A DNA stretch of 47,089 nt. It comes from Desulfobacterales bacterium (lineage in GTDB: Bacteria; Desulfobacterota; Desulfobacteria; Desulfobacterales; JAAELO01). Of this stretch, positions 1,447-47,089 are shown in pieces. The stretch is from positions 1 through 47,089 of the forward strand of contig JAAELO010000462.1 of the NCBI GenBank assembly GCA_024226555.1, written 5' to 3'. A model generated the notes under the pieces. It ran no database searches. It saw nothing but the letters and a program-made list of their open reading frames with translations, and had not been told where the DNA came from. Made by a program: the position numbers and the translations under genes. The first letter of the stretch is position 1, and every line of letters begins with the position of its first letter.

Positions 1447-1869
1447 ATGGCAACAAGCAGCAATATAGGTAGACCGCTGAAGTACAAAACAGTTGAAGAG
1501 ATTGAACCTTTGATAGAAAAGTATTTTGACGACTGTAAGAAAAACGAAGACCCATATACTGTGACAGGGTTAGCCTATGCCCTTGATACAAGTCGCAAGA
1601 CCCTTATGGAATATGAAGGTAGGTCTGAGTTTAGTAACACAATAAAAAAAGCTAAGGACAGATGTGAACTATATGCAGAGAAGAAACTTTACAAAGGTGG
1701 CAGTGTAGCAGGTGTTATTTTTAGCATGAAAAACAATTACGGATGGACTGATAACATTAAGCTTGATGCAGATGTTAAAACAAAGAAAACAGACCTTACA
1801 CATGAAGAAATTGACAAGCTGATTGAAGAAAAGCAGGAAAGTATCAAGCAAATTGAAGAAAACAGCTAA
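1447..1869 (+). CDS. terS: Terminase small subunit
   Basis: This is the 140-residue DNA-recognition subunit of the packaging motor. The N-terminus has GRPLKY, then a helical region with a helix-turn-helix-like stretch near residues 38-60 (TGLAYALDTSRKTLMEYE). Next come an oligomerisation-type helix and the YGWTDN motif seen in P22 gp3-type small terminases. The C-terminus is a charged coiled coil. The gene has a GGGGAGG Shine-Dalgarno. It is separated from the large subunit by a GIY-YIG nuclease gene, a 75-residue gene and a small insertion, an unusual spread for terS and terL. Confidence 0.88.
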   Translation: MATSSNIGRPLKYKTVEEIEPLIEKYFDDCKKNEDPYTVTGLAYALDTSRKTLMEYEGRSEFSNTIKKAKDRCELYAEKKLYKGGSVAGVIFSMKNNYGWTDNIKLDADVKTKKTDLTHEEIDKLIEEKQESIKQIEENS

Positions 1870-1878
1870 AGGTAAATA

Positions 1879-2355
1879 ATGAAAGAGCTTACAAGAGAGT
1901 TTAGAATAGACAAGAAGGAAGCATATGATTGTATACTAAAACATGGTAATGATATAAACATTCGCCTGTTGGAATCGCAATATTCAACCTTTAAAGCTGT
2001 CGAAGAAGAAATATTATCAATGAAAGACATTCTGTTCAGTTCAGAATACATAATGCAGGGTCTCGAGGCTTTTACAACTATACCATTTATTAAAAGGCCA
2101 TTTATCTATTTTCTGTATGATGGTGAAACATTGGTTTATATAGGCAAGACCTTGAATTTAGCAGCAAGAATAGGGACACATATATCAGACAATGAAAAGG
2201 TTTTTGATAGGGTAGGATATAAAAACGTTGATAAATCTATACTTTCACTGGTTGAAGAGGTTAACATATATCATTACAAACCAGTGTATAACAAATTAGT
2301 ATGGTCTAACGTTGATTTATTTAAAAATGTGCTAAAAATGTGTGTATTTGAATAA
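1879..2355 (+). CDS. GIY-YIG family endonuclease (free-standing)
   Basis: In this 158-residue protein the C-terminal half carries the GIY-YIG signature in the form IYFLYDG...LVYIGKT. It is followed by R and H residues (AARIGTH) and a late N in the KPVYN segment. The N-terminal 65 residues look like a helical DNA-binding extension. Such stand-alone nucleases usually spread as selfish homing elements. Its position between the two terminase genes fits an insertion that did not break a coding sequence. Confidence is high for the fold and moderate for the homing role. Confidence 0.85.
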   Translation: MKELTREFRIDKKEAYDCILKHGNDINIRLLESQYSTFKAVEEEILSMKDILFSSEYIMQGLEAFTTIPFIKRPFIYFLYDGETLVYIGKTLNLAARIGTHISDNEKVFDRVGYKNVDKSILSLVEEVNIYHYKPVYNKLVWSNVDLFKNVLKMCVFE

Positions 2356-2412
2356 TCAATATAATCAAATACATATAAAAACTGAGTCAACTTCTTACAC
2401 GGGGTGGAGACA

Positions 2413-2640
2413 ATGAGAAAAGAGGATAAAGTAAAATTGAGGATAACAGACTCTAAAACAAAGAAGAGGCATAAATTTGATGAGTCAAGGAGGCAATATT
2501 CAGAGAACTTCCCAAGAGTTATTGCAGAATCTTTTGTTTTAACTCCAACAGATTTGAGGGTTGTGGGCCAAGGGCTTTGTATTAACTCAATGCTCAGTAA
2601 TCCAATTGTAAGAGACACACAAAATAGGTTGTTTGGTTGA
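2413..2640 (+). CDS. Hypothetical basic protein, 75 aa
   Basis: ATG 2413 is preferred over an upstream in-frame GTG at 2404, because GGTGGAG lies directly before the ATG. The product is basic and polar (many Lys, Arg and Asp) with no membrane segment. Its TGA stop overlaps a TTG in the sequence TTGA. That TTG matches the start of the large terminase gene 148 bases downstream, so terL probably once began here, translationally coupled to this gene. No family was recognised. Confidence 0.65.
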   Translation: MRKEDKVKLRITDSKTKKRHKFDESRRQYSENFPRVIAESFVLTPTDLRVVGQGLCINSMLSNPIVRDTQNRLFG

Positions 2641-2653
2641 ACATAGAAGAAAA
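2637..2653. repeat. 17-bp direct repeat, vestigial copy of the terL start
   Basis: Bases 2637-2653 (TTGAACATAGAAGAAAA) are identical to 2785-2801, where the same bases form the TTG start and first codons of terL. In this upstream copy the reading frame continues for 12 more codons and then stops. The 131 bases between the copies hold the inverted-repeat element. The arrangement looks like an insertion that duplicated its target. Confidence 0.85.
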
Positions 2654-2685
2654 GCGAACCCAATTATTTGGGCCAGGGAGACAAT

Positions 2686-2766
2686 GGTAATATCAAAGAG
2701 TGGAAGGCGGGACCATAAGTTGATGGATAAACCATAAATAGCCAGGAGTACAGCTTTGATATTACC
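2686..2766 (+). ncRNA. 81-nt inverted-repeat structured element before terL
   Basis: A perfect 13-bp inverted repeat (GGTAATATCAAAG at 2686-2698 and its complement at 2754-2766) encloses 55 bases. A smaller hairpin CCAT-N6-ATGG and two CCATAA motifs lie inside. A possible 17-codon reading frame with an AGGGAG site runs from ATG 2684 to a TAA at 2735-2737, partly inside the stem. The element lies in the RNA leader of terL, 18 bases before its start. It could be a cis-regulatory RNA, an attenuator with a leader peptide, or a small inserted element. I do not recognise it as a known riboswitch or ribozyme. Confidence 0.5.
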
Positions 2767-2784
2767 TTATTTAAAGGGACTTAC

Positions 2785-2801
2785 TTGAACATAGAAGAAA
2801 A
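2785..2801. repeat. 17-bp direct repeat, functional copy at the terL start
   Basis: This is the second copy of the 17-bp repeat described at 2637-2653. Here the TTG is the start codon of terL, preceded by AAAGGGA at 2774-2780. Confidence 0.85.
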
Positions 2802-4365
2802 AATGGAATTACTTGAACTCTTAACTGAGAAAGAAAGACGCTTGAATGAAATAGATATAAATGATCCTCGCATGAAAGATAAATGGTGGAGAATGAACAA
2901 TCTTTATTACATTATTAATGAGAATGCAGAAAAGATACTATTTCAGCCTAAGCTTAGAGATGTTCAAACAGCCTTGTTCAATGACCCACACAACAGAAAG
3001 CTTGTTTTAAAAGCAAGACAGCATGGTGTTACAACATACTATTGCATAGACTATCTTGATAACGCTATGTTTAAAAAAAACATAAGCTGTGGAATCATTG
3101 CACATAATAAGGATGATGCACAAATATTCTTCGCCGACAAAGTCAAGTATGCATTTGACAATCTGCGTTGCCCGGAGTTAATTGTAAAACTTGCACCATC
3201 TAAAGACAGTAGTCGCGAGCTTGTTTTCGCTAACAACTCTTCTATTCGTGTTGGTACTTCGCTAAGATCAACAACATTACAGTATTTACACATATCAGAA
3301 TACGGTAAGATTTGTGCAAAGTATCCTGAAAAAGCAAGGGAGATTCGAACCGGAGCATTAAATACTGTTCATGGGAACAATGAAATTACAATAGAGTCAA
3401 CCGCTGAGGGCAGGGATGGTGATTTTTACCGCATGTGTACCAAAGCACAGAACAACGAGAAGCAGGGCAAAGAATTAACACAGATGGACTTTAAGCCATT
3501 CTTCTTTTCCTGGTTTCAAAAGCCAGAGTACAGGCTTGATATAGATAGCGTATCTATTCCACCGACTATGATAGAATACTTCATGGATCTTTACCATAAG
3601 CACGGCATTAAATTGGATGACGCACAAAGGGCCTGGTACGTTAAGAAGTACGAAACACAGCAAGACGAAATGAAACGGGAATTTCCATCTACACCGGAGG
3701 AAGCGTTCGAGGCTGCTATTATCGGTGCTTATTATGGTGTTCAAATGGCAAGAGTTCGTGAACAACGTAGACTCGGAGCATTTCCACATAATCCTAATGC
3801 CCTTGTTTATACTGGATGGGATATAGGCTATAACGATGCCATGACAATATGGTTTTTTCAACTTGATAATAATATGGTCAACATTATAGATTATTACGAG
3901 AATAGTGGCGAAGAGATGGGGCACTATGTTGAGTTATTAAAAGAAAAGGGCTATATTTACGGCGATCACTATGCACCACATGATATTAGTAAGCATGATG
4001 TTATGTCAGGGAAAACAAGGATAAGAAGAGCAAAAGAAGACTTTGACATATCATTTATTAGAATTGAACGTGCTATGAATGTTGTAGAGGACATCAACGA
4101 AGTACGAAGAATGTTTTACAAGTTCAGATTTAATGAGGTGACAACAGAACGAGGTGTTGCCGCACTTGATAATTATCGTAAAGAATGGAATGAACACCTC
4201 GTTTGTTTTAGGAAAACACCATTACATAATTGGGCCTCAGATGGTGCAGACGGATTGAGAACACTAACACATGCAGTACTCAGGCTAACAGATTACGCTT
4301 ATTATGAAGAAGAAGAAGCACAAGCGAGCTATAAAACAGGCAGAAACATACACGGCGGGTATTAA
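2785..4365 (+). CDS. terL: Terminase large subunit
   Basis: The 526-residue product is the packaging ATPase-nuclease. The ATPase half has a Walker A variant KARQHGVTT near residue 76. The Walker B region reads HISEYGK near residue 170, the non-canonical form common in this terminase branch. The nuclease half has GWDIGYND near 342, a Gly-Asp-His segment near 398 and SDGADGLR near 484, matching the RNase H-like catalytic centre. The start is TTG with an AAAGGGA site. The upstream context suggests the start was moved by a local insertion. The stop is followed directly by the portal ATG. Confidence 0.93.
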   Translation: MNIEEKMELLELLTEKERRLNEIDINDPRMKDKWWRMNNLYYIINENAEKILFQPKLRDVQTALFNDPHNRKLVLKARQHGVTTYYCIDYLDNAMFKKNISCGIIAHNKDDAQIFFADKVKYAFDNLRCPELIVKLAPSKDSSRELVFANNSSIRVGTSLRSTTLQYLHISEYGKICAKYPEKAREIRTGALNTVHGNNEITIESTAEGRDGDFYRMCTKAQNNEKQGKELTQMDFKPFFFSWFQKPEYRLDIDSVSIPPTMIEYFMDLYHKHGIKLDDAQRAWYVKKYETQQDEMKREFPSTPEEAFEAAIIGAYYGVQMARVREQRRLGAFPHNPNALVYTGWDIGYNDAMTIWFFQLDNNMVNIIDYYENSGEEMGHYVELLKEKGYIYGDHYAPHDISKHDVMSGKTRIRRAKEDFDISFIRIERAMNVVEDINEVRRMFYKFRFNEVTTERGVAALDNYRKEWNEHLVCFRKTPLHNWASDGADGLRTLTHAVLRLTDYAYYEEEEAQASYKTGRNIHGGY

Positions 4366-6453
4366 ATGAAAAGCTTAAAAGAACTATTAAAGATCGCAGA
4401 GAAAAATAATATAGCTGAAGATCTCGACGAGCAAAGGTTACATGAAATTGGTTCAATGTGTAACGACGGGTACAAAGACGACTTAATATCCTGTACTGAT
4501 CGTTTCGCAGCCTTAAAAGACTATATTGAAATAGCCAAACAGGTTGTACAATCAAAAACAGACCCTTGGCCTGGCGCTGCAAATGCGAAGTTCCCCCTGT
4601 TAACTGTTGCCGCTATGCAGTTTAACGCCAGGTCATACCCTGCTTTGATTCCTGCGGGTAAAGTTGTTAACGCAAGGCACTTTGGAGAGGACACAACCGG
4701 CGAAAAGGTAGACAGAGCAAGAAGACTATCAGAGCACATGAGCTATCAACTATTATATGGTATAGATGATTGGCAGGAAAACATGGATACTCTGTTGTTA
4801 CAGATTCCTATTGTCGGTATGATGTTTAAGAAGACATACAGAGATACAGTTAAACGGCGGACTGCCTCAAGTCTTCTTATGCCTGACCAACTTGTTATGA
4901 ATAACGATTCGACTAAGACAGTGGAAACATGCCCCAGAGTAACAGAACTTTTAACACGTCACCCATACCAGATTCAGGGCAACATGGAGTCAGGTCTATG
5001 GCTTGATATTGATTTAGTTTATGACGATGAAGAAAACGAAGAAGTTGAAGAGATTCTTGAACAGCATGCTCTATTAGATATTTACGACGATGGTAACAAA
5101 GAACCGTATATCGTAACGATTCACAAAGAAACAGGTAAAGTATTACGAATTAAAGCCGGATTTGATGAAGATACGATATTTATTGAGCATAACAACGACT
5201 ATAAATCATACGGTGAAGTTAGACGATCTATTGAAAATCAGAACATGGCAACACAGCGTCAAAACATGGAATCCGCACAGGTTGCAGCAGAAGCACAGGC
5301 GAACGGAGTTGGTCAACCTGCTATCACGCTAAAGCCAATACCTGAACTTAAAACATCAGGAATAACACCACTGTGTGTTGAAAAGATTCAATTTTATACA
5401 GAATATGGGTATCTACCAAGCTTTGATGGTAAATATTATAAGGCTGGTTTAGGCGATTTAATATCATCTCTTTCAGGGCTAATTGATACAAACCTTAATC
5501 AGATGTTAGATGCCGGAACACTTGCAAATTTACAGGGTGGGCTAAGACAGAAGATAGGAAAAGGTAAAGCCGGAAAGATTCCATTAAGACCAGGCGAGTT
5601 CCCTGAAGTTGATACTGGAGGCGTACCACTTAGAGATTCAATATACCAGTTTAATTTCCCAGGCCCATCTCAAGTATTGTTTGCATTACTTGGCATGTTG
5701 ATTGATGCAGCAAGGGATATCACAAGTATTAAAGATATTATGGTCGGCGAAGCTCCACAGGGAGAGACAGCGACAACAACCATGATTAAGCGTGAGGAAG
5801 GCATGAAAGTATTCTCAGCTATTTACAAGAGAATACATCGTTCTATGTCTAAAGAGTTTAAAAAGCTCTATACACTTAATCGCAAGTATTTGAAACAAGG
5901 GGAATATTTCCGGTTCGGAGATAGTCAGTCTTATATTAGCGCAGTTGACTATGAGGACGACAGCCTTGATGTTATTCCGGTAGCTGACCCTAACGAAAGC
6001 ACAATGCAAGAACGGTTAATGAAAGCTGAGGCCCTAATGAACTTTCTTGGTGATCCTGACGCTAACCCTGTAGAGATTAAAAAGAATTACATCACTGCAA
6101 TGGGTTTTGCTGAAGAAGAGTACGCAAGATTCTTCCCAGGCGCACAACCTACACCACCACCACCTGAAGCACTTAAGATTATGGCAGAAGTGAAAGAGAT
6201 AGAGGGTAAAATAGAAAGTCTTAAATTTGATAACGCTCTAAAACAGGCTAAGATAATTGAGACTATCGCAAACGCAGAATCGAAAGAGATAGGCACACAG
6301 TTGGATATATACAAGCAAGCAATGGAGGAATTACTAAATGGAGTACAGTCAAGCGGAGTTGAGGGAATGGGCAGCGGATCCGAGGGCAAAGGAGGTTTAC
6401 AAGCTACTGCACCTGGAATGGTTGGCGGACAAGCGCAAGGCATTTTGGAATAA
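4366..6453 (+). CDS. Portal protein (P22-like)
   Basis: This 695-residue protein should form the dodecameric ring through which DNA enters and leaves the head. The motif DPWPGAANAKFPLL near residues 66-79 and the following ARSYPALIPAG are typical of P22-type portals. A central acidic region, the core near residues 340-480 and a long C-terminal helix follow. The final 40 residues are Gly/Ser-rich and overlap the next gene by 116 bases in another frame. P22 gp1 is 725 residues, so the size fits. It follows terL directly. Confidence 0.9.
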   Translation: MKSLKELLKIAEKNNIAEDLDEQRLHEIGSMCNDGYKDDLISCTDRFAALKDYIEIAKQVVQSKTDPWPGAANAKFPLLTVAAMQFNARSYPALIPAGKVVNARHFGEDTTGEKVDRARRLSEHMSYQLLYGIDDWQENMDTLLLQIPIVGMMFKKTYRDTVKRRTASSLLMPDQLVMNNDSTKTVETCPRVTELLTRHPYQIQGNMESGLWLDIDLVYDDEENEEVEEILEQHALLDIYDDGNKEPYIVTIHKETGKVLRIKAGFDEDTIFIEHNNDYKSYGEVRRSIENQNMATQRQNMESAQVAAEAQANGVGQPAITLKPIPELKTSGITPLCVEKIQFYTEYGYLPSFDGKYYKAGLGDLISSLSGLIDTNLNQMLDAGTLANLQGGLRQKIGKGKAGKIPLRPGEFPEVDTGGVPLRDSIYQFNFPGPSQVLFALLGMLIDAARDITSIKDIMVGEAPQGETATTTMIKREEGMKVFSAIYKRIHRSMSKEFKKLYTLNRKYLKQGEYFRFGDSQSYISAVDYEDDSLDVIPVADPNESTMQERLMKAEALMNFLGDPDANPVEIKKNYITAMGFAEEEYARFFPGAQPTPPPPEALKIMAEVKEIEGKIESLKFDNALKQAKIIETIANAESKEIGTQLDIYKQAMEELLNGVQSSGVEGMGSGSEGKGGLQATAPGMVGGQAQGILE

Positions 6454-6571
6454 AATGCAAAACGGTAGTTTAAGTCACGACGAGATAGCAGTAGAAGCCG
6501 GGAAAGTTTCCGGTTTTAAAGAGGCAATAGAGGACAGCATTGATATTTTACAATATTTAAAGGAGAGTTAA
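6338..6571 (+). CDS. Helical small protein overlapping the portal gene
   Basis: The 77-residue protein starts at ATG 6338 with a clear GGAGGA site. Its first 116 bases lie inside the portal gene in another frame. It is predicted nearly all helical (REWAADPRAKEVYKLL, then EAGKVSGFKEAIEDSID) and looks like a genuine protein, not a shadow: the part beyond the portal stop continues the same amphipathic pattern. Similar small helical proteins occur between portal and scaffold genes in related phages. Function unknown. Confidence 0.78.
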   Translation: MEYSQAELREWAADPRAKEVYKLLHLEWLADKRKAFWNKMQNGSLSHDEIAVEAGKVSGFKEAIEDSIDILQYLKES

Positions 6572-6572
6572 G

Positions 6573-6878
6573 ATGAGCAAGGCGGGACTAATTCCGGTAG
6601 AATACAAGGTTATTGTTTTACCTGATCCGATTGAAGAAAAAGCGGGCGAAGGTGTTATTATTAAAGCAGAAACAACGCTTGATACTGACAAGAGAATGCA
6701 GACAAGAGGCACATTAATTGATTACTCAGACATGGCTTTTGAGGGTATGCCGTGTAAATTACCTAAAAGGGGCGACCGCATTGAATACGCTATGTATTCA
6801 GGGCAATACTTCGAAGGTGACGACGGGCAAGAGTATATCATCATGAATGACAAGGACATAGTGGGTTTTTGGGGGTAA
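6573..6878 (+). CDS. GroES-like co-chaperonin
   Basis: This 101-residue protein has the Cpn10 layout. The N-terminal strand ends in KVIVLPDPIEEK, followed by a mobile-loop region EKAGEGVIIKAE with a hydrophobic VII triad in place of the IVL of GroES. A TRGTLIDYS strand and RGDRIEY complete the barrel. No GroEL gene is present, so it should act with the host GroEL, as T4 gp31 does for capsid folding. It lies between the portal and scaffold genes, consistent with assisting the major capsid protein. Confidence 0.85.
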   Translation: MSKAGLIPVEYKVIVLPDPIEEKAGEGVIIKAETTLDTDKRMQTRGTLIDYSDMAFEGMPCKLPKRGDRIEYAMYSGQYFEGDDGQEYIIMNDKDIVGFWG

Positions 6879-22258: not shown

Positions 22259-22663
22259 TTAATCTTCATATAAGTCGTCAATATTATTATGTATAATTTT
22301 ATCAATTTCTGGATCAGTAGAAACTTGTGAACCTAAAATAGCTTCACAAATACTTACAATATCTGTTTCGAATTTTAGTTCAGGGTAAACCCCCGACACT
22401 TTCAGCGTTGCAGTATGATGAATTTTGCAGTGACAATGGACGCAAAGAGTTATTAAATTATCCGGTCTATCCTTGCCTCCCTGCGATCTGTATAAAATAT
22501 GATGTGGGAGATCCAAAGGCCATCCGTTCGAGCAATATGGATTCTGACATCTGTTATCATCTCTCATATACACCTCAGCATAAATACTTTTCAACCTCTC
22601 AGGACTAACGCCCCGTTTCTTTTTCTTCTTTTTCCCTGGCTTGGGGATCGGGTATACTTCCAT
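22259..22663 (-). CDS. HNH endonuclease, 134 aa
   Basis: A Lys-rich N-terminus (GKKKKKKRG) leads into an HNH module. It has CQNPYC, the paired His in PHHILYRSQGGKD, the central N in PDNLITLC and CHCKIHH with the last metal site. Cys pairs (C-x4-C and C-x2-C) suggest a structural zinc. It is the last gene of the minus-strand accessory block and shares the leader GGAGGTTAAACGATG with another gene here. It may act in DNA processing or as a selfish nuclease. Confidence 0.85.
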   Translation of the reverse strand: MEVYPIPKPGKKKKKKRGVSPERLKSIYAEVYMRDDNRCQNPYCSNGWPLDLPHHILYRSQGGKDRPDNLITLCVHCHCKIHHTATLKVSGVYPELKFETDIVSICEAILGSQVSTDPEIDKIIHNNIDDLYED

Positions 22664-32183: not shown

Positions 32184-32231
32184 AGCTTTAAGATTAGATA
32201 GTTATTTTAAAATATATAAAAGGTGATTAAC

Positions 32232-32543
32232 ATGGCAACTAAAAAACAACACAAAGAAATAGAAAATGATTATTATTACATGGTTAGAACCCACGGCGAA
32301 CCGTCAGATTTGACAGGTGGCTTTGTTGAAGGAGATAAGCTTGAGGATTTACTGAAGAAACCGACAATAACAACGGCTTATAATATCTATAAAAGTTTAC
32401 TTCAATATGGCTTTCAATCTCCAACAGATTATTTATGGTGGTGTGATCGCACAAGACATGAATATGGGTGCGGTGAATCTACATATAAAGACGTATCTCA
32501 AGATAAAAGAGCTGTTGAAATACATGATAAATATCATTGCTAA
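32232..32543 (+). CDS. Hypothetical protein, 103 aa
   Basis: ATG 32232 has AAGGTGA five bases ahead; a GTG at 32223 is less likely. The product is aromatic-rich (DYYYMVRTHGEP, YLWWCDRTRHEYGCG) and probably globular. It lies between two 21-bp repeats, so it may be a recently inserted gene cassette. No family was recognised. Confidence 0.6.
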   Translation: MATKKQHKEIENDYYYMVRTHGEPSDLTGGFVEGDKLEDLLKKPTITTAYNIYKSLLQYGFQSPTDYLWWCDRTRHEYGCGESTYKDVSQDKRAVEIHDKYHC

Positions 32544-43097: not shown

Positions 43098-43117
43098 CTT
43101 TCTCCTTTAATGTGGTA
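43098..43117 (-). repeat. Truncated cassette leader
   Basis: Twenty bases identical to the central part of the 31-bp leader found at 43452 and 44020, including its AAAGGAG ribosome site. Here it runs straight into the terminator and has no gene behind it. Confidence 0.85.
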
Positions 43118-46718: not shown

Positions 46719-47003
46719 ATGGACATAACACCCTTAATAAAAACTGTATTCGGAGAGTATCAAGCACATGTCTTTTCAATTATTGCTGTGCTCGCAAGAA
46801 TGCAATATAATGTTAACAAAACAATAGCTGTTCAAGATATAAAGCTTACTAATATTAAGGAAGATGTAAAAATAAATACTACTAAAATAGAAAAGCATGA
46901 CACACAGATACACAATCTTGACAATAAGGTATCGCTATTAGAATTAAAGGAGAAGTGGAGTGGCAACAAAGAAAAAAGCAGTAAAGAAGAAAGCAACACC
47001 TAA
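46719..47003 (+). CDS. Membrane-anchored coiled-coil protein, 94 aa
   Basis: A hydrophobic segment at residues 12-26 (YQAHVFSIIAVLARM) is followed by a coiled coil (residues 35-78; TKIEKHDTQIHNLDNKVSLLELKEK) and a Lys/Ser/Glu tail. The layout resembles XhlA-type hemolysin or accessory lysis proteins. The gene ends in the repeated contig end (stop equals base 55 of the first copy) and overlaps the lysine-rich gene by 44 bases. Confidence 0.65.
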   Translation: MDITPLIKTVFGEYQAHVFSIIAVLARMQYNVNKTIAVQDIKLTNIKEDVKINTTKIEKHDTQIHNLDNKVSLLELKEKWSGNKEKSSKEESNT

Positions 47004-47089
47004 AAAAGCAGCACCAAAGAAAACGGCTAAGAAAAAAGCAACTAAATCAAGACGGGCTGAACCATTCACGGGGTTAAACAATGGACAAA
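46949..47089. repeat. Terminal overlap, second copy
   Basis: Identical to bases 1-141. It contains the end of the coiled-coil gene and a cut-off copy of the lysine-rich gene starting at GTG 46960. Count these genes once. Confidence 0.9.

Follow-up and report, generated by a model that had tools for sequence, protein, structure and literature searches.

At the junction between a small open frame, called gene A here, and the gene for the large terminase subunit (terL), two copies of the initial 17 nt of terL enclose a unique segment of 131 nt. All positions given below refer to the window, i.e., the whole stretch of DNA that was analyzed (47,089 nt). We hold, with about even confidence, that this is a small variable segment of an operon junction, and that its 17-bp repeat was left by a local illegitimate event and not by a dedicated mobile element. 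Either illegitimate recombination between short homologies or template switching in the course of replication would account for such an event. An earlier interpretation made from the letters alone (the sequence-only reading) had proposed that a small element entered the junction and duplicated its target. A rearrangement with a 17-bp duplication does fit the sequence, and other boundary repeats in the same genome add to its plausibility, whereas the dedicated element is the part of that proposal that we do not retain.

The two ends of the window are identical (bases 1-141 equal bases 46949-47089), and it is probably a complete phage genome, either circular or terminally redundant. On the + strand, the order of genes around the terminase is terS (small subunit, 1447-1869; PF16677, E 3.7e-19; phrog_606, E 3.1e-23), a GIY-YIG endonuclease gene (1879-2355; PF01541, E 2e-05, 25.2 bits with a cut-off of 22.6), gene A (2413-2640, an open frame of 75 codons without known relatives), the segment (2654-2784), and terL (2785-4365), whose product of 526 aa matches phrog_2472, phrog_26724 and phrog_2. 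The gene directly 5' of the segment is gene A, not terS. The portal gene (4366-6453) lies downstream of terL, and a gene for a GroES-type co-chaperonin (6573-6878; phrog_3188, E 5.7e-06) is located behind it. Searches with gene A returned no relatives in phages or viral contigs, and none were found for the portal protein in viral contigs. It should be mentioned that the source assembly is fragmented (904 contigs, 7.69 Mb), as would suit a metagenome assembly artefact in which, for example, two strain variants were joined. Assembly words are usually longer than 17 nt, however, so that a repeat of this length falls below them, and the window closes on itself through its 141-nt overlap; we consider such an artefact very improbable.

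The repeated sequence, TTGAACATAGAAGAAAA, is present at 2637-2653 (copy 1) and at 2785-2801 (copy 2) with all 17 nt identical (100%) and a spacing of 148. No direct repeat of 17 nt within 200 nt appeared in any of 200 dinucleotide-preserving shuffles of the window, and the repeat is not due to chance. Identity between the copies starts exactly at the terL start codon and stops after 17 nt. The 30 nt upstream of copy 1 show no relationship to those upstream of copy 2 (their score was equalled by 1608 of 2000 shuffles), and evidence for a longer, diverged copy beyond the 17 bp is weak (114 of 2000 shuffles over the following 30 nt and 688 of 2000 over 40 nt); a value as low as 12 of 2000 was reached only where the extension test took in some of the identical 17 nt. 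Within the window the exact 17-mer occurs at 2637 and 2785 only, and two more sites appear when three mismatches are allowed. As the sequence-only reading had described, the upstream TTG (2637) overlaps the TGA stop codon of gene A (2638-2640) in the form TTGA. Used as a start, this TTG opens a separate frame of only 17 codons with its stop at 2688, and it is the second copy that opens the terminase frame, as both the PHROG matches and the alignment with the closest relative confirm. This relative, a viral contig designated L002, encodes a TerL protein that aligns from residue 1, at its own TTG, with the TTG at 2785. Because this close relative aligns from that very codon, copy 2 is, judged by the alignment, the real and conserved terL start.

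A Shine-Dalgarno-like AAGGGA (2774-2779, + strand) lies 5' of terL inside the segment. Its best duplex reaches -5.0 kcal/mol, compared with -3.1 kcal/mol for copy 1 and a weaker -2.5 kcal/mol for terL of L002. The 300 random positions used as a reference had a median of -2.2, with -5.7 and -8.3 as the 10% and 1% quantiles, and the value for copy 2, which falls between the 10% and 25% quantiles, is therefore not exceptional. Since the match in L002 is weaker still, any gain for terL translation is only putative. According to the reading that we prefer, the stop codon of gene A would earlier have overlapped the terL start (TTGA), and after the event that start would have stood in two copies with 131 nt in between. 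Ribosomes leaving gene A would now meet a dead-end start of 17 codons at copy 1, and terL would be started at copy 2 from the Shine-Dalgarno sequence of the segment. The predicted effect is that terL became separated from the gene A stop and that another Shine-Dalgarno-like sequence was placed before it. The event may have been an insertion or a loss from something longer, as none of the relatives found has gene A and terL joined without a segment between them.

Only one close relative of the terL gene was detected, namely L002. A search of phages with the TerL protein gave 441 records, all below 60% identity, and among viral contigs L002 (about 72-73%) was followed by matches of 56, 50 and 50%. 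When a two-row TerL alignment served as the query against viral contigs, L002 and three matches of 26-36% were obtained, and the L002 protein itself retrieved L002 and one match of 23%. In genome contigs, the alignment hit 37 loci (best 47%). Among the 96 genomes of the relatives set, terL was found in the own genome together with three distant matches (35-45%), and among 395 genomes of the phylum, at E ≤ 1e-130, in the own genome only. It was also observed that in 27 of the 37 loci in bacterial genomes (L044 and L046-L071) the match to the window TerL stops at residue 308. A terL gene split at this residue was considered, but in L044, the sole locus opened, the gene is not split and continues as one protein of 564 aa; the C-terminal part in these loci may come from another family.

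Further examination of L002 bears on a comparison of junctions in relatives, which the sequence-only reading had put forward as a check. L002 carries neither the 17-nt repeat of the window nor its pair of inverted-repeat arms, and no direct repeat of at least 13 nt at a spacing of 60-1500 nt is present in its 4136 bases. An empty site was not found: L002, the one close relative, has a different stretch of 136 nt at the position of the segment, containing a 47-codon gene that overlaps both the preceding gene (ATGA) and terL (TTGA), and an empty gene A-terL junction was absent among all relatives found. DNA similarity between the window and L002 begins at about 2782, i.e., at about the terL start. 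The occurrence of a stretch of nearly equal length in L002 could mean that the slot is old.

These observations give rise to the main rival explanation, in which a small gene decayed in an old slot. The ancestor would have possessed gene A, a coupled gene B and terL, as L002 does now; in the window, gene B would have acquired a stop at 2735, its frame still running to the terL TTGA, and copy 1 would be a secondary local copy of the terL start. The place of the 47-codon gene in L002, with its TTGA overlap with terL, agrees with this model, as do the similar slot lengths (144 nt in the window and 136 nt in L002) and two weak protein alignments to L002, one of the window frame 2633-2785 with the 47-codon protein (30 of 1000 shuffles as good) and one of gene A with its L002 counterpart (33 of 1000). 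At the nucleotide level, however, the two slots are not more similar than shuffled sequences (153 of 1000 as good in local and 196 of 1000 in global alignment), and the DNA similarity to L002 starts only at terL. We regard decay of a former gene as a possible but less probable explanation than the local event; by order of our confidence, it is followed by a functional hairpin leader.

The latter possibility arises from an inverted repeat within the segment. The arms GGTAATATCAAAG (2686-2698, + strand) and CTTTGATATTACC (2754-2766, + strand) pair at 13 of 13 positions and enclose 55 nt, giving a total of 81 nt, in agreement with the perfect 13-bp repeat described in the sequence-only reading. 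A 13-bp inverted repeat with a loop of at most 60 nt arose anywhere in the window in 13 of 200 shuffles (mean 0.08 per shuffle), and the repeat is only moderately unusual and not decisive by itself. The 17-codon frame that had been noticed between the copies also exists (2684-2737, + strand; ATG at 2684, stop at 2735). At -8.2 kcal/mol, its Shine-Dalgarno match surpasses any other within the segment; in the same frame, the sequence runs open back to a TTG at 2633 (34 codons). The left arm consists of the last base of this ATG and the next four codons, and the right arm ends 18 nt before the terL TTG.

If functional, the hairpin and the strongly initiated 17-codon frame would form a structured leader that tunes terL translation by attenuation, re-initiation or RNA processing. 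The predicted fold of 2684-2770 was more stable than all 200 shuffles (z -3.0), and two stretches with one arm each, 2600-2740 and 2740-2880, had z values of 0.17 and -0.10, which favors such a leader, as does the start of the left arm at the last base of an ATG with a strong Shine-Dalgarno match. The limits of the 2684-2770 fold, however, were chosen after the repeat had been seen, and the advantage shrinks with wider limits (z -2.01 with 9 of 200 shuffles as stable for 2654-2784; z -1.53 with 17 of 200 for the whole 165 nt of 2637-2801). Moreover, the right arm ends before AAGGGA, so that the long stem would leave the terL Shine-Dalgarno sequence uncovered; Rfam gave no match at the gathering threshold in the whole window, and a homologue that could be used for covariation was not found. 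A permissive Rfam search of 2560-2860 yielded three sub-threshold matches (best E 1.2) to microRNA and lncRNA families, which were taken as chance. A regulatory hairpin controlling terL is possible in the light of these predicted folds, yet as an account of the segment we rate it unlikely. Under the local event as well, translation of the 17-codon frame might help or hinder terL, its first codons forming the left arm of the hairpin.

The sequence-only reading had also suggested a miniature mobile element. In favor of it, a direct repeat, which would be the target duplication of 17 bp, flanks a segment holding an inverted repeat. The arms, however, are not terminal and sit 32 and 18 nt inside the 17-bp copies. 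In addition, the segment occurs at a single place in its own 7.69-Mb assembly, it has no match at E ≤ 1 among plasmids, and the exact arm pair was found in none of the viral contigs scanned, a search which diverged arms would escape. With an inverted repeat that is not terminal, a single copy and no related sequence in the assembly, phages or plasmids searched, a mobile element is unlikely, and we place it last among the explanations considered, at a very low probability.

Other searches for the segment and its surroundings were also performed. The segment gave 72 phage records, of which the 20 listed match over 19-26 nt at E about 5. The 17-mer was found in 25 stretches of viral contigs, none of which contains a terL relative (0 of 25, tblastn), and these matches were dismissed as chance, though three of them (L010, L024 and L027) extend over 32-33 nt at about 91%. 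A query with the DNA of 1860-4400 retrieved two phage records, each as a piece of 104-143 nt within terL. In 389 genomes of the order, 2413-2900 was found in the own genome, and three matches of 35-43 nt internal to terL (E about 4e-4 to 8e-4) were attributed to chance. A tandem duplication of gene A as the origin of the segment was rejected, the similarity being no better than that of shuffles (614 of 2000 for nucleotides; 645 and 848 of 2000 for protein). The best match of the segment within the window is 6517-6570, the end of another frame, and was equalled by 1 of 400 shuffles but also by 2.7% of real stretches; an origin of the right half of the segment from this region is suggestive only. 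No paper describing this segment was found in the literature, as judged by titles and the beginnings of abstracts.

With regard to other phages, the interval between terS and terL varies. In L003, terS (phrog_309) overlaps the terL frame, and in L088 a terS with 49% identity overlaps a phrog_38 terL. L086 has a terS with 63% identity, and between this gene and the large frame that follows, an HNH endonuclease gene is located on the opposite strand. Judged by eye, that large frame resembles a terL, but its match is to a PHROG of unknown function. The window interval holds the GIY-YIG gene, gene A and the segment, and the junction therefore gains material. For 43 stretches bearing terL and for the window, the frames upstream were surveyed for their distances only, and rows whose match started past residue 60 were dropped.

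Besides the terL repeat, the window contains other direct repeats at gene boundaries. With simple sequence excluded, and with frames of at least 40 codons assigned mechanically, longest first, there are, in the window as a whole, six pairs of direct repeats (four families) of at least 15 nt at distances of 60-1500 nt, and all six touch predicted frame ends at both copies (within 12 nt), compared with 1-2% expected by chance. Two further pairs, 14279/14333 and 34325/34379, lie inside genes at a distance of 54 nt, below the spacing limit, and are outside this count. The clearest case is 32161-32181/32546-32566, where 21 nt from the end of one gene (stop codon 32181-32183) are found again just behind the gene that follows (32223-32543). 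Judged by eye, the second copy leads, with the frame unchanged, to a stop codon, as though the gene 32223-32543 had entered the boundary. On the - strand, a leader of 20-31 nt with a ribosome-binding site is present in three copies (43098, 43458 and 44026) around two genes, one for a 111-aa protein without Pfam match, the other with a match to RLIG1 (PF17720). No gene is led by the copy at 43098, which, by eye, adjoins a terminator-like hairpin. Apart from letters of ribosome-binding sites and starts, no common sequence among the families is obvious by eye. Further short repeats were seen at gene starts or ends, namely 22661/23067 (15 nt), 34759/34993 (13 nt) and 31934/32000 (13 nt), and 22259-22663 encodes an HNH endonuclease (PF01844). 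Single pairs of 13 nt can be due to chance, since such a pair arose within 200 nt in 57 of 200 shuffles.

It is conceivable, though we think it doubtful, that in phages of this type small genes come and go via short boundary repeats and that the terL segment, 32161/32546 and 43098/43458/44026 reflect one process. Each gain would copy the local boundary, i.e., a start or stop together with a ribosome-binding site, with the new gene placed between the two copies, and the flanking copies could later recombine the gene out again. In the 25 viral stretches that contain the 17-mer (272,100 bases), 7 of 26 repeat pairs, located in 4 of the 25 stretches, were boundary pairs, and such repeats are therefore not peculiar to this phage. 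If the model is true, the pattern would be a readable record of small-gene uptake in which ribosome-binding sites are kept.

We also compared the segment with known systems. MITEs are recognized by terminal inverted repeats next to the target duplication and by related copies elsewhere. The arms of the segment are not terminal, and no further copy turned up in its own assembly, in plasmids or, for the exact arm pair, in the viral contigs scanned. The mobile regulatory cassettes of T4-type phages are reportedly short non-coding boundary sequences linked to gene shuffling; in the present case no second copy of the segment was found. Free-standing endonuclease genes beside the terminase are reported in PMC12724721, where HNH genes lie between terL and the portal gene in Skunavirus. 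The GIY-YIG gene next to the terminase genes is similar to these, whereas the 131-nt segment encodes no endonuclease and is situated in the terS-terL interval. Phage translation starts with short repeats and inverted repeats are also known from the start-associated sequences (SAS/ESAS) of cluster K mycobacteriophages. According to PMC3203893, these form one 13-bp repeat family with 11 to 19 copies per genome, and about half have 17-bp inverted repeats with spacers of mostly 4-13 bp. In the window, the sequences differ from one boundary to the next, the loop has a length of 55 nt, and the 17-mer is not shared by a multitude of gene starts. The segment also resembles the microdiversity loci, short segments that are not a known element and are flanked by a direct repeat of less than 30 bp. 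As stated in PMC2884548, 10 to 18% of the small variable segments in the compared bacterial genomes are flanked by direct repeats, most of them under 30 bp, which are ascribed to replication slippage (short-homology illegitimate recombination) and read mainly as sites of deletion. Those loci were defined on aligned bacterial genomes, whereas here a single phage genome without an aligned empty site is concerned; the direct repeat at both ends of the segment is nevertheless what such flanked segments display. Genomes are known to vary by small segments of this sort, enclosed by short direct repeats, and the one described here by itself records a small-scale change of the genome in a packaging operon.
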